From positions 1 through 38,422 of the IMG/VR virus record IMGVR_UViG_3300032268_000817: 38,422 nt of DNA; one strand, 5' to 3'. This DNA is from a virus. Of this stretch, positions 631 to 27,043 are shown one piece after another. A model generated the notes under the pieces. It did not search any database, had not been told where the DNA came from, and was given only the letters and a program-made list of their open reading frames with translations. A program made the position numbers and the translations under genes. Position 1 is the first letter of the stretch; each line of letters opens with the position of its first letter.

Positions 631-2391
631 GTGACTAAAGAACAATTAATTATAGAAGTAACGAAGTGTATGAGGAATACTCCTTATGCACTTCGAACTT
701 ATTTACAGACATACGATAACACAGTTTCAAAGTATGTTCCCTTAGACCTTTTTCCTGACCAAGTAAGTTTGATTGAAGACTACGATAGTCACAATGAAAA
801 TATTGCATTGAAATATCGTCAGGCGGGTGTATCAACAGTTACCGCAGCTTGGGCTTCAAAAAAATTGGTATTTGCCAAAAAACAAAAACCTGAAAAGATT
901 CTAATCATTGCCAATAAGTTAGATACATCTGTCGAGATGGCTAACAAGATTAGAAGTTTTACAGAACAGTGGCCGGCATGGGTCGGTGTTGGATTTTCAA
1001 AAGAAAAAAACTCTCAAAGACACTTCAAACTTACAAATGATTGTGAAGTTAAATCTGTTGCAACATCTAAAGATGCCCTGAGAGGTTATACCCCAACCAT
1101 TCTTATCTTTGATGAGGCGGCGTTCATTGAGGCTGACGGAGATTTCTGGTCAGCGTGTATGGCCTCACTATCTACGGGTGGTAAGGTTATTGTTGTTTCA
1201 ACTCCTAACGGATATGACCCAATCTATTATGAAATCTATGACCAATCTTTGAGAAACATGAACGATTTCAAAATATCTGAAATGTTTTGGTATCGTGACC
1301 CTCGTTATACAAAAGACCTTTTCATGGTTAAAACAAACGATTTGGTTCATTATCTTCTTAACAGAGAAGAATATTCCAAAGATTTGATTGTTGATTTATC
1401 GATTGAAAATCCATATGAAAGAGACCATGCTGTTACAACAGATTATATAGAACAAGGATATAAACCATGTTCCGCTTGGTTTGAAGGAATGGTTAAGAAA
1501 TTGAAATTCGATAGACGTAAGGTTGCTCAGGAATTGGAATGTAACTTCTTAGGTTCAGGTGATAACGTATTTGAATCTGAACTTATGCAGAATATTGCCA
1601 AGAATATGTTAAGAGAACCATCAGCTAAGTTGATGGGAGGGTCTCTATGGATATTTAAAGAACCCGTAAACGGTCACAAATATGTTATGGGTGTCGATGT
1701 ATCACGTGGAGATTCGGAGGACTTCTCGTGTATCCAAATCATTGATTTCGATGAAAGGGAACAGGTGTTAGAATATGTTGGAAAAGTTCCACCAGATGTT
1801 ATTGCAGAAATTGCGTATAAGTGGGGAACAATGTATAACGCATATTGTGTTGTGGATATCACAGGAGGTATGGGTGTTTCAACCGCAAGAAAAATGCAAG
1901 AAATGTCTTATGGAGGTGGTTTGTATGTCGATAATGTTGACACAAGTAATAAATGGAAATGGGACCCCAAATTAAATGAAAAGATACCAGGTATTAACTT
2001 CAATAGTAAAAGAGTTCAAATTATTGCGGCGTTTGAAGAAGGTATGAGACATGACTTTAGAGTGTATTCAAATAGATTATACAACGAAATGAATACTTTC
2101 ATTTATATCAATGGAAGGCCGGACCACCAAAAAAATCATCATGATGACTGTATAATGGGGATTTCTATGGCAATTTATGTTGCTGAGAAATCTTTCCAAT
2201 CTTTAAGTAAAGTTGCAAATCATACAAAAGCCATGTTAAATTCTTGGACGAGTAATGTTCACGAAAACAGAAATACATCTGATTTCTTTAATCCAATGGT
2301 TTCACAAATGGGTCAAGATTCAAGAGTATGGAATAATGGTGCATCTAAAAAAGACTACGAAACATATAAGTGGTTATTCGGAGGTCGATAG
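631..2391 (+). CDS. Terminase large subunit (T4 gp17-like ATPase-nuclease)
   Basis: This is the DNA-packaging motor that cuts concatemeric DNA and pumps it through the portal. The ATPase half shows a Walker A-like motif YRQAGVST (62-69), a Walker B ILIFDEAAF (157-165) with the catalytic acid, and the coupling motif STPNG (190-194). The RNase H-like nuclease half has acidic residues at D356 (GVDVSRGD), D409 (VVDITGG) and D505/D506 (HHDD), the pattern seen in T4 gp17. The length of 586 aa is close to T4 gp17. The start is GTG at 631. The first in-frame ATG lies at codon 14, inside what looks like conserved N-terminal sequence, so GTG is preferred. No Shine-Dalgarno is visible. It is followed by the portal gene after a late-type motif. 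Confidence 0.96.
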   Translation: MTKEQLIIEVTKCMRNTPYALRTYLQTYDNTVSKYVPLDLFPDQVSLIEDYDSHNENIALKYRQAGVSTVTAAWASKKLVFAKKQKPEKILIIANKLDTSVEMANKIRSFTEQWPAWVGVGFSKEKNSQRHFKLTNDCEVKSVATSKDALRGYTPTILIFDEAAFIEADGDFWSACMASLSTGGKVIVVSTPNGYDPIYYEIYDQSLRNMNDFKISEMFWYRDPRYTKDLFMVKTNDLVHYLLNREEYSKDLIVDLSIENPYERDHAVTTDYIEQGYKPCSAWFEGMVKKLKFDRRKVAQELECNFLGSGDNVFESELMQNIAKNMLREPSAKLMGGSLWIFKEPVNGHKYVMGVDVSRGDSEDFSCIQIIDFDEREQVLEYVGKVPPDVIAEIAYKWGTMYNAYCVVDITGGMGVSTARKMQEMSYGGGLYVDNVDTSNKWKWDPKLNEKIPGINFNSKRVQIIAAFEEGMRHDFRVYSNRLYNEMNTFIYINGRPDHQKNHHDDCIMGISMAIYVAEKSFQSLSKVANHTKAMLNSWTSNVHENRNTSDFFNPMVSQMGQDSRVWNNGASKKDYETYKWLFGGR

Positions 2392-2427: not shown

Positions 2428-4281
2428 ATGGCAGAACAGAATTTAACAGTTTGGCAACGATTATCCAAAACTTTTGGTCCAAATTCCCTTTTGGGTCAAG
2501 ATTATCCAACTTTCAAGTTTGATAAGAAAGAAATATTACGCACAAAAAGTAGAGAAGAATACGAGAAGGAAAAACTTCAAGCTCAACAATCATTCTATTT
2601 AGCGGGTCAATGGACAAAAGTTGAAAATAATTTATATTCTCAAGCCATCTACTATGAGCCATCAAGATTATCTGCTCAGTATGATTACGAATCAATGGAG
2701 TATACTCCTGAAATTTCTGCCGCTTTAGATATCTACGCTGAAGAGTCAACAACAACAAACGAAGATGGATTTATTCTTCAGATTTATTCTGAATCGAAAA
2801 GAATCAAATCCGTATTAGCTGACTTATTCAATAACGCACTTGATATCAACACTAACCTCCCGATGTGGACAAGAAACACCTGTAAGTATGGTGATAACTT
2901 CATTTACTTGAAGTTAGACCCTGAGAGAGGAATCGTTGGATGTCAACAACTACCAACAATTGAAATTGAAAGACATGAGGTAGGTGCGAGTCAAAAGATT
3001 TCAGTTCAGATTGAAAAGACTGAACCGAACAAAGCCTTAACATTTACTTGGAAGAACAAAAACATGGAATTCCAAACTTGGGAGATTGCTCACTTCAGAT
3101 TATTGGGTGACGATAGAAAGCTTCCTTACGGAACATCTATGTTAGAAAAAGCAAGAAGGATTTGGAAACAATTATTACTTTCTGAAGATGCGATGTTGAT
3201 TTATAGAACATCAAGAGCTCCTGAAAGAAGAGTATTCAAAGTATTCGTCGGAAACATGAATGATGACGATGTTGAAGCATATGTTCAACGTGTTGCCAAT
3301 AAGTTCAAAAGAGAACAAATTGTTGATAGTAAAACAGGAAACGTTGATATGAGGTTTAACCAAATGGCGGTTGACCAAGATTACTTTGTTCCTGTTAGAG
3401 ACCCTGCAGCACCAAGTCCAATTGATACTTTACCTGGTGCTACAAACTTATCAGAGATTGCCGATATTGAATATATCCAAAAGAAATTGTTAACAGCACT
3501 TCGTGTTCCAAAAGCATTCTTAGGATTTGAAGAAGTTGTTGGTGATGGTAAGAATTTATCTCTCCAAGATATTAGATTTGCCAGAACAATTAATAGGATT
3601 CAAAAAAGTATGTTGCAAGAACTAAACAAAATTGCAATTGTCCATTTATTCTTATTAGGTTTTGAAGATGAATTATCAAACTTTACTTTAGGTCTTTCAA
3701 ACCCATCTACACAAGCTGACCTATTAAAAATTGATGTTTGGAAAGAAAAAGTATTATTATACAAAGATTTAGTTTCAGACCCAGGTAATGGTATTCAAGC
3801 AACTTCATCTACATGGGCTAAAAAACATATCTTCGGTTGGTCTGATGAAGAGGTTAAACTTGACTTACAACAACAAAGAATCGAAAGAGCTGTAGGTGAA
3901 GAATTGAAAGCAACTGCAACAGTTATCACCAAGACAGGATTCTTCGATAACATCGACAAGCTTTACGGAACAACAACAGGAACCACAACAACACAAGGTG
4001 CTGAAACAGAAACGGAAAGTCCCCTACCATCATTTGGAGGAGGAGGCGAACCATCTGGACTACCTGAACCAGCAGGAGGAGAATTAGGAGGGGGTGAAGC
4101 TCCACCACCGGCAGAAGCGGGAGGGGGTGAAGCTGAAGTAACACCTGAATCAAGAATGAAGGACTTTAATATTTTAATTGAAAATAACATGATTGAGGGC
4201 GATGAATTCCTCGATTTAGGAAAAGCTAGAGAATCTTTAGGAGAAATTTCGAAAGAATTGGATAAGTTATTAAATTCATAA
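2428..4281 (+). CDS. Portal protein (T4 gp20-like) with low-complexity C-terminal extension
   Basis: The portal forms the dodecameric ring at the head vertex through which DNA passes and on which the prohead is nucleated. The assignment rests on position between terminase and prohead protease, length (617 aa against about 524 in T4), and gp20-like features: TPEISAALDIYAEEST near 91-106, an RAPERRVFKVFVGN segment near 266-279, and the LRVPKAFLGFEE region near 367-378. From about residue 515 the protein has a Thr-rich, then Gly/Pro/Glu-rich linker of roughly 60 residues. It ends in a charged helical tail (about 575-617). T4 gp20 has no such linker that I know of. The linker may tether the tail to the core or to packaged DNA; this is speculative. 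Confidence 0.93.
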   Translation: MAEQNLTVWQRLSKTFGPNSLLGQDYPTFKFDKKEILRTKSREEYEKEKLQAQQSFYLAGQWTKVENNLYSQAIYYEPSRLSAQYDYESMEYTPEISAALDIYAEESTTTNEDGFILQIYSESKRIKSVLADLFNNALDINTNLPMWTRNTCKYGDNFIYLKLDPERGIVGCQQLPTIEIERHEVGASQKISVQIEKTEPNKALTFTWKNKNMEFQTWEIAHFRLLGDDRKLPYGTSMLEKARRIWKQLLLSEDAMLIYRTSRAPERRVFKVFVGNMNDDDVEAYVQRVANKFKREQIVDSKTGNVDMRFNQMAVDQDYFVPVRDPAAPSPIDTLPGATNLSEIADIEYIQKKLLTALRVPKAFLGFEEVVGDGKNLSLQDIRFARTINRIQKSMLQELNKIAIVHLFLLGFEDELSNFTLGLSNPSTQADLLKIDVWKEKVLLYKDLVSDPGNGIQATSSTWAKKHIFGWSDEEVKLDLQQQRIERAVGEELKATATVITKTGFFDNIDKLYGTTTGTTTTQGAETETESPLPSFGGGGEPSGLPEPAGGELGGGEAPPPAEAGGGEAEVTPESRMKDFNILIENNMIEGDEFLDLGKARESLGEISKELDKLLNS

Positions 4282-4304: not shown

Positions 4305-5003
4305 ATGACTTTCGGACAAGTAAAATCCATTATTGAAAAAAATCTTATTGAATCGTATAGAAACGAGAAAGAATTTAAAAAATCTTTAAGAGAATTTAAG
4401 GAAAATGTTCTCAACAGTAAGTCGTTGTCCAAGGTTTATAACTTGTATGACCAACTATCAACTTCTCAAGGTCTTAGCTCTTCTGATGCGAACGAATATC
4501 TTAATGAAGGTATTAGTCTTATTCAAAGATTATTACCAACAATTAAAATGCCAAAAAGTATATCTGAAAGTAATTCTAATTTATACTCAGATATCGACAC
4601 TTTAGTTTATATAAACAAACTTAATATCCACGAAAGATTACAATCTAGGAAAAACATTATTAAAGTTTTGACCTCAGAAAACAAAATTGTAAAAGAGTCT
4701 ATAAAAATTCCAATTAGCTCGATGGTGAAAATTGCGAATCAAACTTTGGAGAATTATGTTGATACAATGGATGAGCAATCTAAGAAAACTTTTATTGAAA
4801 TTCTAAAATCTGATGGTGAAAATCTGAAAGAAGATTTTTCTGTATTAAAAGAAAAAACTATCGAAAAATTGAATTCAGTTCTTGGTGAGCAAAAAGAAAG
4901 TGATATTATTGAAAAAATAACTGAAACAATTAACAAATTAAAAGGAGAAGAATTCAATCAAATTAACTATTTTAAATTAGTTAATTTAGAAAAGAATTTA
5001 TAA
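4305..5003 (+). CDS. Hypothetical helical protein, possible prohead core component
   Basis: 232 residues, rich in Lys, Glu, Ser and Ile, apparently almost all helical, with no recognised domain. The N-terminus carries an amphipathic helix VKSIIEKNLIE (6-16) that ends in L-I-E. This fits the L/I-x-E cleavage pattern of T4-type prohead proteases and resembles segments in four other proteins here. T4 has small core proteins (gp67, gp68) between portal and protease genes, so a core or internal protein is a reasonable guess from place. The late-type motif 15 nt upstream supports late expression. Its stop overlaps the end of the convergent bS21 gene by six bases. Confidence 0.75.
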   Translation: MTFGQVKSIIEKNLIESYRNEKEFKKSLREFKENVLNSKSLSKVYNLYDQLSTSQGLSSSDANEYLNEGISLIQRLLPTIKMPKSISESNSNLYSDIDTLVYINKLNIHERLQSRKNIIKVLTSENKIVKESIKIPISSMVKIANQTLENYVDTMDEQSKKTFIEILKSDGENLKEDFSVLKEKTIEKLNSVLGEQKESDIIEKITETINKLKGEEFNQINYFKLVNLEKNL

Positions 5004-5186
5004 TTCGTTAACTTTTCTTTGTTTATAAATTGCTTTTAACTTCTGAGCTCTTTTCTCAACAGAGTTTTTTGTGAATTTTTTTCTATTCATCAACTGTTGA
5101 TTCTGTTTGGTCTTGATAACTTTAGACTTCAAAGTCTTAAGAGCTTTCTCAATGTTTTCGTTGTTTTTAATTTCTATAATTAACAT
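4998..5186 (-). CDS. rpsU: Ribosomal protein bS21
   Basis: 62-residue basic protein that matches Bacteroidota bS21 in length and layout. It starts MLIIEIKNNENIEKALKTLK, followed by a Lys-rich middle, then FTKNSVEKRAQKLKAIYKQR, aligning with the family's N-terminal strand, basic helix and the F-x-K/KPS-x-x-KR segment. bS21 binds the 30S platform near the anti-Shine-Dalgarno end of 16S rRNA. It is the ribosomal protein most often reported in phage genomes. It is the only minus-strand gene in the head region and overlaps the preceding convergent gene by six bases. A late-type motif variant (TATTTATT) ends seven bases before its ATG. I see no strong Shine-Dalgarno, unlike what is described for host rpsU mRNA in Flavobacterium. 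Confidence 0.85.
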   Translation of the reverse strand: MLIIEIKNNENIEKALKTLKSKVIKTKQNQQLMNRKKFTKNSVEKRAQKLKAIYKQRKVNEL

Positions 5187-5193
5187 ATTCTGA

Positions 5194-5201
5194 AATAAAT
5201 A
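5194..5201 (-). promoter_or_regulatory. Late-type motif variant TATTTATT upstream of bS21
   Basis: On the minus strand this reads TATTTATT, 7 nt before the bS21 ATG, with one mismatch to the common TATTTATA. Confidence 0.4.
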
Positions 5202-5282
5202 TTAATGTTTTTTGTAATTTTTTGACATTAAGTTTTATATGTCTTATTTTTATTAAAATAAACTATAATAACATGAAATTTA

Positions 5283-5711
5283 ATGAAAAAAGGAAAAAGT
5301 GTAAAGTTGAATCTTTACAGTCCAATTAAATCAGTATATGGTACTGTCGATTCAAAAAATTTGAAATCAATTTACATTAATATCCAATCTTGGGTATGTC
5401 CCAAAAACGACCACGATAACTGGCATAGGGTCGTGTGTAATCTCAATCGTGAAATAAAACATTCAGTATTCAATTCAATATCGCAAACAGTTTTTATGGA
5501 TAAAAGCATTGTTGATTTAGATTTAAGAACGAGTGGGATTTCAGTAGGAAAAAAATCTTTTTTTAATTTAGAAGTAAATTTATACACGAATGAAGAATTA
5601 GACTTTAAATCTCAGGAATTAAAAGACTCGGTTAAAAGAATCGTTAAAAACATTTTTACAAATAACCTTACAAACAATTCTTATTTTGATTTTTATAAAA
5701 CCAAAAAGTAA
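5283..5711 (+). CDS. Hypothetical protein
   Basis: 142 residues and no family recognised. It looks like a mixed alpha/beta protein with alternating polar and hydrophobic strands (VKLNLYSPIKSVYGTVD near the start, FFNLEVNLYTNEELDF around 96-111) and a Lys/Asn-rich C-terminal helix. The ATG at 5283 was chosen because the ATG ten bases earlier (5273) is in another frame that closes soon. The roughly 96-base gap between this gene and the divergent bS21 gene is very AT-rich and must hold its promoter. I see no exact late motif on this strand there. It sits within the head gene block just before the protease. Confidence 0.7.
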   Translation: MKKGKSVKLNLYSPIKSVYGTVDSKNLKSIYINIQSWVCPKNDHDNWHRVVCNLNREIKHSVFNSISQTVFMDKSIVDLDLRTSGISVGKKSFFNLEVNLYTNEELDFKSQELKDSVKRIVKNIFTNNLTNNSYFDFYKTKK

Positions 5712-5739: not shown

Positions 5740-5747
5740 TATTTATT
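5740..5747 (+). promoter_or_regulatory. Late-type motif variant TATTTATT upstream of protease
   Basis: TATTTATT ending 12 nt before the prohead protease ATG at 5760; one mismatch to TATTTATA. Confidence 0.4.
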
Positions 5748-5759
5748 TCTAAAAGAGTT

Positions 5760-6476
5760 ATGAAGAAATTAAGAATTCTTGAGGCAAATGAATCAGGTCA
5801 TGGGATTTTGATTGAAATGGATGCAGGTTATGTGTCTCCTCGTGAAGATATGAATGCCGCTTTTTTAAAAGAGGCTGTCAAAATGGATTATAAAAATCCT
5901 TTTGAATTTTATGCTGTTCTACAAAAATATGACACTCCAAATAGAAATGGTAGATTCTATCCTGAAAGAATACTCAAGAGAGAGGCTGAAAGATATAAGA
6001 AGATGATTGCTAAAGGTTTATCAACTTCAGAATTAAACCATCCAGAATCTTCTTTAATTGACCTCGATAGAGTTTCGCATATAATAACAGACGTATGGTG
6101 GGATAAGAATATATTGATGGGTAAATTGAAATTACTCACTTCACCAGGTTTCCATGAAAGAGGTATCGTTTCAACAAAAGGTGACCAAGCGGCCAATCTA
6201 ATGAGACAAGGGGTTACTATGGGTGTTTCATCAAGAGGTGTTGGTTCCTTAAAAAAGGTTGGAGAAAGAAATGAGGTTCAAGATGACTTCGAGTTAATTT
6301 GTTTTGACTTAGTATCTTCACCTTCAACACCAGGTGCTTATCTTTTCACAGATGTAAATGAAAGAGAAAAATATGAAGAAAATCTTGAAGAAGAAAAGAA
6401 AGTTTCTCAACCTGAAAAGAATTTAGACAAGTCTATTGATTTGATGAAAAAACTTACCGATTTTTTGGGTAAATAA
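5760..6476 (+). CDS. Prohead core protease (T4 gp21-like, S77 family)
   Basis: This serine protease matures the prohead by cutting the capsid protein and core proteins after L/I-x-E sites. The length of 238 aa is near T4 gp21 (212 aa). Typical features are the FYAVLQKYDTPNRNGRFYP segment (50-68), the probable catalytic His94 in ELNHPES, and the probable catalytic serine in GVSSRG (S157 or S158), followed by a DFELICFDLVSSPSTPGAY block. The C-terminal 40 residues are charged and may be removed on activation, as for gp21; that is by analogy. It lies between the portal and scaffold/capsid genes as in T4, with a late-type motif 12 nt upstream. Confidence 0.94.
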   Translation: MKKLRILEANESGHGILIEMDAGYVSPREDMNAAFLKEAVKMDYKNPFEFYAVLQKYDTPNRNGRFYPERILKREAERYKKMIAKGLSTSELNHPESSLIDLDRVSHIITDVWWDKNILMGKLKLLTSPGFHERGIVSTKGDQAANLMRQGVTMGVSSRGVGSLKKVGERNEVQDDFELICFDLVSSPSTPGAYLFTDVNEREKYEENLEEEKKVSQPEKNLDKSIDLMKKLTDFLGK

Positions 6477-8799: not shown

Positions 8800-10608
8800 A
8801 TGGGAGCATTATTAGAATCAGGTCTTGTTGGTAACATCGGTCTCAAGCACCTTAAAGTTATCAAAGAAGACACAATCGGAAAATGGGACAAATTAGGATT
8901 CTTAGAGGGTCTTAAAGGTCACATGAGAGAGAACGTAGCTCAACTTTACGAAAACCAAGCGTCATACCTTATTAACGAAGCTTCAACAACTTCAGATACA
9001 GGTGCTTTCGAAACTGTGGTTTTCCCTATCGTTAGAAGAGTTTTCTCTAAATTATTAGCAAACGATATCGTATCAGTACAAGCTATGAACTTACCAATCG
9101 GTAAATTGTTCTACTTCGTACCTAACATTCAGAACTATGAAACAGGTGGTGATTACAATTCAAACGAAGGAACTCACTATTCTCCTTATGGAGCACCTAA
9201 TGGACCGTTATCTCCAAACGCTGGATATAACTACAACACTGGTAGAACATTGTATGACAAGTTCTATGAAGGTGAAGAACCAGCATTAGACCCACCAGGT
9301 TTATATGACTATTCTAAAGGTTCATTCTCTGCTGTAACAGGTTCTGCTGTAACTGCACAATGGAATAATGTAACATTAAACCTTGACCCTTACGATTATG
9401 CTGAAGGTAATTACAGAAAAGTATTACTTATCATGTCAGGTTTCGCATCTGATGGTGCTGGTAAATTAATCGGTCCTGATGGTCAACCAATCGACAACGA
9501 ATCATTCTTATCTGATTTGACTATCTACGGTAGTACTGCTGGTACAAACGTAAATACTGCAGGTGGCGGTCCTTACTTATTTAGAGTTGTAACTCAAAGA
9601 TATGGTAAAGGTATTGTTCAATACGGTAATAACAACTCAACATTAGTATTCCCTACATCAAAAACAGGTGGTGGTCAATATGACAACATTTGTGATGTTG
9701 AAGGACAAATCTATCTTGAAGTAGATTTACAAGTTCCTGCATGTATCTCTTGCGGTGGTTCAATCGACGGTTACACAGGTTCAACTTTCTCTTCTACAAC
9801 TGTAATAAACCAAGCGTTTACACCAGTTTATAGAATTTATAAGAACTTAGAATTCGAAGATAAAATTGGTGAGGTGTCATTCGACCTTCAATCAGTAACA
9901 GTTTCTGTAACTGAAAGAAAATTAAGAGCACAATGGTCTCCAGAGATGGCACAAGACGTTGCGGCATTCCACAACATCGATGCTGAAGCTGAATTAACAG
10001 CTTTACTATCTGAGCAAGTTGCGGCTGAAATCGATAGAGAAATCTTAAGAGACCTTAGAAAAGGTGCAGCTTGGAACTTAAGATGGGATTACAACGGTTG
10101 GAAGAGATTAGGTACTAACGCAGTTCCTTACACTCAAAAAGACTGGAACCAAACGCTTATCACAGCAATCAACCAAGTTTCTGCTCAAATCCATAAGTCT
10201 ACTTTAAGAGGTGGTGCTAACTGGATTGTTGTTTCTTCTGAAATCAGTGCAATTTTTGATGATTTGGAATATTTCCACGTATCAAACGCAGCTCCTGAAC
10301 AAGACCAATACAACATGGGTATTGAAAGAGTTGGTACTTTAGCTGGTAGATATCAAGTGTATAGAGACCCTTACTTCCCACCAAACCAAGTGTTATTGGG
10401 ACACAAAGGTACGTCTTTACTTGACACAGGTTATATCTACGCACCATACGTTCCATTACAACTTACTCCTACAATGTACAATCCGTTCAACTTCACTCCA
10501 ATCAAAGGTATCATGACTAGATACGCTAAGAAGATGGTGAACAACAGATTCTACGGTAGAATCACAGTTGATGGCGTAAGAACATTCGACTTAAAAGAAT
10601 TGAGATAA
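8800..10608 (+). CDS. Major capsid protein (T4 gp23-like)
   Basis: 602 residues forming the head shell. The N-terminal third matches gp23-type proteins: a helical propeptide, then FETVVFPIVRRVFSKLLANDIVSVQAM and PIGKLFYFVPN. The C-terminal part has QWSPEMAQDVAAFHNIDAEAEL and the REILRDLRKGA region. There is a clear maturation site LINE/A after Glu60, equivalent to FLTE/A after residue 65 in T4 gp23. The protein is longer than gp23 (521 aa); the extra length seems to lie in the middle (about 110-330), possibly an enlarged insertion domain. The start context is A-rich without Shine-Dalgarno. The gene ends just before a strong terminator. Confidence 0.96.
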   Translation: MGALLESGLVGNIGLKHLKVIKEDTIGKWDKLGFLEGLKGHMRENVAQLYENQASYLINEASTTSDTGAFETVVFPIVRRVFSKLLANDIVSVQAMNLPIGKLFYFVPNIQNYETGGDYNSNEGTHYSPYGAPNGPLSPNAGYNYNTGRTLYDKFYEGEEPALDPPGLYDYSKGSFSAVTGSAVTAQWNNVTLNLDPYDYAEGNYRKVLLIMSGFASDGAGKLIGPDGQPIDNESFLSDLTIYGSTAGTNVNTAGGGPYLFRVVTQRYGKGIVQYGNNNSTLVFPTSKTGGGQYDNICDVEGQIYLEVDLQVPACISCGGSIDGYTGSTFSSTTVINQAFTPVYRIYKNLEFEDKIGEVSFDLQSVTVSVTERKLRAQWSPEMAQDVAAFHNIDAEAELTALLSEQVAAEIDREILRDLRKGAAWNLRWDYNGWKRLGTNAVPYTQKDWNQTLITAINQVSAQIHKSTLRGGANWIVVSSEISAIFDDLEYFHVSNAAPEQDQYNMGIERVGTLAGRYQVYRDPYFPPNQVLLGHKGTSLLDTGYIYAPYVPLQLTPTMYNPFNFTPIKGIMTRYAKKMVNNRFYGRITVDGVRTFDLKELR

Positions 10609-10626: not shown

Positions 10627-10656
10627 AAAAAAGGTCCCCAAAAGGGACCTTTTTTT
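10627..10656 (+). terminator. Bidirectional rho-independent terminator after major capsid gene
   Basis: GGTCCC (10633-10638) pairs with GGGACC (10644-10649) around loop CAAAA. The A run before and T run after extend the stem and give a U tract on either strand. It lies between the capsid gene and the convergent minus-strand gene ending at 10655, so it can serve both. Confidence 0.88.
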
Positions 10657-10879
10657 ATTTGGATAATCGAGTTGAGTTTAATACACGTAAAGACTTTGAG
10701 ATTATTTCAGACTCTTCTAGAGTGAATAAATTTTTTTGATAACACATGTTGATTGCCAATCCAATCATATAAACAGATTGTTCTTCATTAAGTCCATCAA
10801 TAAGATTTGATATGTCGGTTGGAGAAAAGTATGAAATTGTTTCAAATAATTCTCCAATTGGTTGTTTTTTGTCTTCCAT
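10655..10879 (-). CDS. Hypothetical small acidic protein
   Basis: 74 residues and no family recognised. It appears all-helical, with ELFETISYFSPTDISNLIDGLNEEQ and a Leu-rich C-terminus. It is convergent with the capsid gene and divergent from the Cys-motif gene. A candidate host-type promoter precedes it (boxes at 10928-10931 and 10903-10910). This suggests expression independent of the late genes, though the evidence is short-motif only. Confidence 0.65.
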   Translation of the reverse strand: MEDKKQPIGELFETISYFSPTDISNLIDGLNEEQSVYMIGLAINMCYQKNLFTLEESEIISKSLRVLNSTRLSK

Positions 10880-25653: not shown

Positions 25654-26378
25654 TAATATAAAAGATTTACCAAGTTGTTAATTTCATTTTCATATTGTGT
25701 AAATGGTCTCAATAAATGTGAATCAATATAAAATCCAGAACTTACTCTTTCTGAGTTATATTTCCAATTTATTCTATCAATTCTTCTGTCGGCAGGACCA
25801 TTCCAACCTCGTTTCAAAAAGATAACGTTTTTATTTATTTCATTATATTGGTTAACCTTTTCAAAAAGATACTTTTGGTCGGTATACCATGTTTCATTTC
25901 TGTTGTGTAGTAAATTACAAAATTCTTCCCATGATAGATTTAAATCAAAAATATTTTTGAACACCTGAGATTTTGCTGCAACGTAACACATTGGATACAT
26001 GTTTTTTCTTAAACACTCAGGGTTGTCAGACGAGTGAATAACCATGTTTTCAGAATTTAATCTTGAACAAGTTCCTTCAAAATAATTTTTTGATAGTGGC
26101 AACATATCAATATCGGAAATCAAACAGTTTCCTTCTAAAAAATTTGCCAAGTAAAATCTAACAATTTGGGATTGTAGTCCAATATCAATACCTTCAACCT
26201 TTTTGAACTTTTTGACTAGCCCAAATTGGTCTTCATAAATTTCAGAATCTTCGTCAGAAATCAAACCAAGAACGGGTTTGACTTTGAAAACTTGAGACCA
26301 TACCTTTGAAACTGTCGGCCAAAAGTCAAAATAATAAGGGTTCGTGTCAGAACCAATTAAAACGTAATCTAAGCTCAT
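25653..26378 (-). CDS. Putative glycosyltransferase (GT-A, DxD)
   Basis: 241 residues. NCLISDIDMLPL with DID at 89-91 is a DxD motif at the end of a beta strand, preceded by QIVRFYLANFL, typical of GT-A enzymes that read nucleotide sugars. C-terminal KRGWNGPADRRIDRINW is distinctive. No transmembrane segment. Four-base overlap with the upstream gene. Confidence 0.75.
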   Translation of the reverse strand: MSLDYVLIGSDTNPYYFDFWPTVSKVWSQVFKVKPVLGLISDEDSEIYEDQFGLVKKFKKVEGIDIGLQSQIVRFYLANFLEGNCLISDIDMLPLSKNYFEGTCSRLNSENMVIHSSDNPECLRKNMYPMCYVAAKSQVFKNIFDLNLSWEEFCNLLHNRNETWYTDQKYLFEKVNQYNEINKNVIFLKRGWNGPADRRIDRINWKYNSERVSSGFYIDSHLLRPFTQYENEINNLVNLLY

Positions 26379-27043
26379 TTAACATAATTTGTGATTGCTC
26401 GCCAGTCTTCATTGACAGGAAGTTCATCTATACCAATTCTTTCTCCAACAAATCTCATATCATCTCTTTTGGTTGGAAAAGGTTTTTTCTCAAAAAAATC
26501 ATCGTGAACAACTTTATCAAGTTCGAATGCATTATAGACCATTTTTAAAAAGGTTTGGTCAATACCATATTTGTTTTCTTTACCAACAACAAATTTCTTA
26601 ATCATTTGTGTAAGTGGTAATTGTTTTCCTTTGATTCCCCACATACCAGCTAATATCCCCAATTTGTTATTACCATAAGGAATACCGTGACCTGGATGGT
26701 CTCTCATAACGTGTAAAGATTTTCTAGTTTCAATCCAAGAATTTACTGCATCTCTTTCTCTCAAATTAATTCTTGAGTCAGTATCTCTGAAAATTACAAG
26801 TTCACAATCGTCTATGTCTGCAGCAAAGAATCTCCAAAAACATCCATATTCAAAGTCATCGACTTTAATAAGAATGCAGTCAAGTGTTTCTAATTTGGAA
26901 ATAGTTTCAGATGGAACTGAATTGTCATAATACAATATCATTTTCCAATCAGGATAAATTTTCCCCATAAGTTCGGCATTTCTTATTGCCCCAACATTAT
27001 AGAGTGGTTTGTCTCCCCATAAACTAAAGCTAACGTATTTCAT
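26375..27043 (-). CDS. Putative glycosyltransferase (GT-A, DTD)
   Basis: 222 residues. MKYVSFSLWGDKPLYNVGAIRNA start, FWRFFAADIDDCELVIFRDTDSRI with DTDS at 87-90, and GIDQTFLKMVYN later. This arrangement recurs in capsule and phage glycosyltransferase-like proteins. Start and stop overlap the neighbours by one to four bases, so it is part of the same operon. Confidence 0.75.
   Translation of the reverse strand: MKYVSFSLWGDKPLYNVGAIRNAELMGKIYPDWKMILYYDNSVPSETISKLETLDCILIKVDDFEYGCFWRFFAADIDDCELVIFRDTDSRINLRERDAVNSWIETRKSLHVMRDHPGHGIPYGNNKLGILAGMWGIKGKQLPLTQMIKKFVVGKENKYGIDQTFLKMVYNAFELDKVVHDDFFEKKPFPTKRDDMRFVGERIGIDELPVNEDWRAITNYVK

Follow-up and report, generated by a model that had tools for sequence, protein, structure and literature searches.

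In Bacteroidota, the choice of mRNAs by the bacterial ribosome hinges in its clearest known case on one small protein, bS21. McNutt et al (2023; PMC9976891) describe extended Shine-Dalgarno (SD) sequences as characteristic of rpsU, the gene for bS21, in much of the phylum, and report that the extended SD of Flavobacterium johnsoniae rpsU is best used by bS21-free ribosomes, which results in autoregulation. Phages that encode a bS21 were described by Chen et al (2022; PMC9723584) in a set of 47 phage genomes, with eight complete bS21-encoding genomes of 293–331 kb. These freshwater Bacteroidetes jumbo phages, grouped in clades a–e, transcribe bS21 at a high level, late and together with the core structural genes (PMC9723584). 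The only viral bS21 that has been tested, that of Pelagibacter phage HTVC008M, was studied in a foreign ribosome: it enters E. coli 70S ribosomes, and in-vitro translation then falls to about 5% (PMC6375957). With a bS21 of their own but no regulatory SD, such phages offer a naturally occurring test case for specialised ribosomes.

The DNA analysed here is a virus record of 38,422 bases (the window) and represents part of a T4-like myovirus genome. The virus is probably a T4-like myovirus of Bacteroidota of jumbo size; two contigs of 317 and 321 kb that carry the same gene block have a large terminase (TerL) about 87% identical to that of the 38-kb window. The terminase, portal, protease and capsid genes around bS21 all lie on the plus strand (Table 1). 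A second small antisense gene, of 74 aa, follows the capsid gene (10655–10879, minus strand); its bS21-like orientation is kept in relatives whose contigs extend there, and profile searches gave no informative family match for it.

Table 1. Features of the bS21 locus and the surrounding head genes (positions in the window).
Feature	Position	Strand	Evidence or remark
Large terminase	631..2391	+	PF03237, phrog_2
T4-like portal (gp20)	2428..4281	+	PF07230, 258 bits
Conserved 232-aa gene, convergent with bS21, 6-base overlap	4305..5003	+	
Phage rpsU, bS21, 62 aa, Tyr54	4998..5186	-	PF01165, 7jil match, selection, AlphaFold
TATTTATT, late-motif variant	5194..5201	-	7 nt upstream of bS21 start codon
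TGTCAAAAA box (TTTTTGACA on + strand)	5219..5227		intergenic alignment
Promoter-like TTTG-N20-TATTTTTA for 142-aa gene	5221..5252	+	
Conserved 142-aa gene, divergent from bS21	5283..5711	+	AlphaFold pLDDT 91
Prohead protease (gp21-like)	5760..6476	+	PF03420; TATTTATT upstream at 5740-5747, as for bS21
Major capsid protein (gp23)	8800..10608	+	PF07068, 242.7 bits

A preliminary description, made from the sequence alone, had assigned the product of the minus-strand reading frame, which starts with ATG, to bS21 of Bacteroidota type, and both parts of this assignment are borne out. The match to the Pfam profile PF01165 is significant (E 2.9e-11; 43.3 bits, where the gathering cut-off is 27 bits) and covers profile positions 2–55 of 55, while the best PDB match is F. 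johnsoniae bS21 (7jil; E 3.6e-9, residues 1–57). The NCBIfam model TIGR00030, which defines the cellular S21 equivalog, scores 26.2 bits, under its cut-off of 28.95, so that the phage protein is not filed as a cellular equivalog; this is in keeping with a diverged viral bS21. For this small, highly basic protein AlphaFold predicts two helices (12–34 and 41–61) with moderate confidence (pLDDT 81.5), and all eight matches of this model in a fold search against the PDB were bS21 chains, though weak ones (E at least 1.8). No close copy was present in the annotated isolate phages of the collection, and the best match came from a 735-kb metagenomic phage (55% over 42 residues).

Tyr54 of bS21 helps to hide the anti-Shine-Dalgarno (ASD) of the 16S rRNA. 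This residue, the aromatic at position 54 that marks the Bacteroidia type, is present in the window protein. Among 84 distinct family proteins, position 54 or the aligned site is Y in 77, H in 3 and F in 2, and in the remaining two proteins, each one residue shorter, the Y or F is displaced by a single position; we count the aligned position as aromatic in 84/84. Such family-wide retention argues that the ASD would stay hidden, as with the host protein, rather than be freed.

A scan of IMG/VR returned 575 relatives, from which 80 loci were kept; one cut at the contig start was left out, leaving 79. Two further scans provided 38 more distinct family sequences, the most distant of them about 44% identical to the query used. 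Compared with close relatives, bS21 shows dN values of 0.014–0.044 and dS values of 0.33–2.2, the changes falling mostly at third codon positions, and strong purifying selection acts on the gene. In the 79 family contigs, and likewise in the 38 that are more divergent, bS21 runs opposite to the block of terminase, portal, protease and capsid genes. It converges with the equivalent of the 232-aa gene and, where the contig extends there, diverges from the 142-aa gene. The placement had been called odd in the preliminary description. This view has to be abandoned, as site and strand are the same in every family contig checked and the arrangement was published in 2022 (PMC9723584). The six-base overlap given in the preliminary description is exact, the 232-aa gene ending at 5003 and the bS21 stop codon occupying 4998–5000; in relatives the convergent overlap is 4, 6 or 9 bases, with one pair of genes that abut, and the divergent gap to the 142-aa gene is 82–104 bp. 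That a small antisense gene overlapping its neighbour might be a non-functional passenger or antisense noise is a reading to which we give almost no credence: dN is far below dS, the place and strand are fixed even in very divergent relatives, the promoter region is conserved and relatives transcribe the gene (PMC9723584), and the selection and conservation data refute it. An AT-rich inverted repeat, found by eye past the bS21 stop and within the end of the convergent gene (4961–4987), is a possible transcript end. One other contig holds a host-like bS21 without the family neighbours.

Host and phage genes differ upstream of the start codon. SD energies were calculated by pairing a 13-nt 16S tail, AUCACCUCCUUUC, with the 25 nt upstream of each start; we take this to be the usual Flavobacterium tail, and it may not be that of the phage's host. 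The threshold for a strong (extended) SD was -12.9 kcal/mol, about -13. By this measure all 80 Flavobacterium rpsU loci have a strong SD (-17.2 to -21.7 kcal/mol), as do 26 of 30 loci from other Bacteroidota (at or below -12.9 kcal/mol). For the window bS21, described earlier as having no evident SD, the 16S tail pairs at -0.1 kcal/mol at best, which amounts to no SD, and the family agrees: in 76 distinct phage upstream regions the median is -1.1 and the best value -8.4 kcal/mol, with none (0/76) at or below -12.9 kcal/mol. Letter-shuffled phage upstream sequences likewise have a median of -1.1 kcal/mol, and phage bS21 leaders therefore hold no SD trace. The contrast (80/80 against 0/76 strong) strengthens the earlier idea that the phage gene may escape the autoregulation of host rpsU. 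What appears to be new here, judged from sequence comparison, is a viral bS21 without the strong SD switch that limits host bS21; Chen et al (PMC9723584) and the accessible parts of McNutt et al (PMC9976891) do not mention the lack of an SD in phage bS21, which has possibly been reported elsewhere. The host-strong versus phage-absent contrast is directly testable in F. johnsoniae.

Two other ideas on initiation at phage genes were rejected. General SD use by phage genes is incompatible with the finding that only 1 of the 42 window genes has a strong SD, and that one inside an upstream reading frame. This sole SD-like stretch, AAAGGAGGTGG (-17.8 kcal/mol), precedes a glycosyltransferase-like gene (26375–27043, minus strand), sits within the 3' end of the upstream frame and may be a coincidence. 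An alternative ASD of the UCUCA type was rejected because TGAGA occurs in 0/41 phage upstream regions.

The claim of a late-type motif variant before bS21 stands as well: the motif is TATTTATT, to be compared with TATTTATA before other late genes. The window has nine copies of TATTTATA, eight of them in sense just before gene starts and the ninth at the contig end. In relatives, sense TATTTAT precedes the portal (36/36), the 232-aa gene (37/37), the protease (39/39) and the scaffold (28/28), is almost never found antisense, and is absent upstream of both the 142-aa and the 69-aa gene in the relatives examined; it also precedes the terminase and portal genes of Flavobacterium phage immuto and Microcystis phage Mel-JY01. 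Among the 76 distinct bS21 upstream regions, TATTTAT is present in 27 and ATATTTG in 33, with one or the other in 60 and neither in 16. ATATTTG is similar to TANNTTTG, the -7 element of the host, which has G at -5 (PMC6847099). In some clades ATATTTG lies 6 nt before the ATG, which would leave a leader of only 1–2 nt. Leaderless bS21 as a general rule was dropped, since TATTTAT stands 17–21 nt upstream of the bS21 start in more divergent relatives. The late expression of the phages of Chen et al has its counterpart in the window in the late-type motif, from which late timing is predicted.

The region between bS21 and the 142-aa gene contains a further conserved element. The (A/G)TCAAA core of the TGTCAAAAA box is found in 45/45 upstream regions of nearer relatives. 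We rejected it as part of the bS21 promoter, because a -33 element of the divergent gene explains it at least as well. The Bacteroidota -33/-7 consensus is TTTG/TANNTTTG (quoted in PMC6847099), the promoter-like TTTG-N20-TATTTTTA comes close to it, and 44 of the 48 distinct intergenic regions have TTTGA at an 18-nt spacing to a TATTTT core; the TGTCAAAAA box probably supplies the -33 part of a promoter for the 142-aa gene. This gene is strongly conserved, and its product is predicted with confidence (pLDDT 91) to adopt a novel-looking fold. Searches found no sequence relatives and no clear PDB fold match, and one good structural match, an uncharacterised myovirus protein (TM about 0.8). The gene is a candidate for bS21_CN, the neighbour that Chen et al report as co-transcribed.

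Phage and host proteins differ in the first helix, where positions 18, 19, 21, 23, 24 and 27–30 are near-fixed in phages and occupied by other residues in hosts. The window residues S21, V23 and Q28, near-fixed in phages, correspond to R/K, F and T in hosts; we counted the phage-specific residues of Chen et al as present, with the Asp change falling at position 24 of our alignment and not at 25. These differences suggest that the function of the phage protein may differ. They are the main support for the reading of Chen et al, in which the changed helix would do more than keep ribosomes replete and would make the 30S subunit prefer phage over host mRNAs; according to these authors, the divergence lies at the expected site of mRNA binding (PMC9723584). 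We consider this rather unlikely, given that the window genes have no distinguishing SD (1/42 strong) and resemble ordinary SD-less Bacteroidota starts, and that no common mRNA feature on which selection could act was found among the phage genes.

In a tree of 126 bS21 rows, 49 from phages and 77 from hosts, the phage sequences form one clade apart from the hosts on a branch with support 97/98. The tree, proposed in the preliminary description, separates the phage copies and does not single out a donor, the alignment having few columns and the branches being long. The picture fits a single ancient transfer from a Bacteroidota host, after which the gene was inherited together with the head block. 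Identification of the present host through bS21 was given up, as the closest bacterial matches share only 47–59% identity and come from several different Bacteroidota groups. One Bacteroidota genome has a bS21 gene without an SD whose product lies, on a long branch, next to the phage clade, and several Bacteroidota genomes have two or three bS21 copies each.

Taken together, the best explanation, to which we assign a probability of roughly 0.6, is a functional, late, SD-independent phage bS21 that would work in the host 30S subunit with the ASD hidden and escape the feedback on host rpsU. To the bS21 identity, selection, synteny, late-type motif and missing SD established directly here, it adds 30S incorporation, SD-independent synthesis and host rpsU repression as conjectural steps. 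The protein would be produced late during infection, under a promoter of its own, and take the place of host bS21 in host 30S subunits; Tyr54 would keep the 16S 3' tail hidden, and subunits so equipped would support initiation on the SD-less mRNAs of the phage. Because the phage bS21 mRNA has no extended SD, its synthesis should escape the host autoregulatory loop, and subunits kept bS21-replete could damp new synthesis of host bS21, perhaps by repression of host rpsU. Against this explanation we count the HTVC008M result, the TIGR00030 shortfall, the helix-1 differences and the 16 of 76 upstream regions without a motif. A bolder version, which we offer tentatively, is that late, SD-free phage bS21 (nearly leaderless in some clades), blind to autoregulation, silences the SD-dependent host rpsU by keeping the ASD hidden, so that ribosomes are re-equipped with the phage version during capsid production.

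An alternative is an inhibitory role, in which the phage protein would poison or stall translation by the host, or a role off the ribosome as an RNA-binding or virion protein. The bS21 of HTVC008M strongly impaired translation by E. coli ribosomes (PMC6375957), and stalled phage protein synthesis in some Bacteroidota phage–host pairs is cited in PMC9723584. We judge such a role improbable: the E. coli result may stem from a mismatched ribosome, and late timing and Tyr54 retention suit the working ribosomes needed for capsid production.

Compared with described systems, the window agrees with every testable feature of the phages of Chen et al (PMC9723584), and the basic discovery was published there in 2022. 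Both have a reverse-strand bS21 between two hypothetical genes in the TerL/portal/protease/MCP block of a T4-like myovirus, of Bacteroidota type with an aromatic residue at position 54, and diverged at positions 21, 23, 24/25 and 28. No structural difference was found between them; the window, a 38-kb fragment, is apparently not named in that paper (PMC9723584), which contains neither an SD comparison nor an analysis of the late motif. The bS21 of HTVC008M is likewise phage-encoded, but of alphaproteobacterial type and host, and not of the ASD-hiding Bacteroidota type. The RpsU of phage Mel-JY01 (WWT39311.1; L195:10557-10784) is likewise encoded within a related head block, with a portal 40% identical, but its gene follows the protease and shares the strand of the head genes, and it is a 75-aa protein of a different bS21 type; head blocks therefore seem to have gained bS21 on more than one occasion. 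F. johnsoniae bS21 (7JIL; PMC9976891) has nearly the same length as the phage protein, the same layout and Tyr54, and differs from it at about nine near-fixed positions of helix 1. Its gene has an extended SD and is subject to autoregulation, whereas the phage gene has no SD and a late-type motif.
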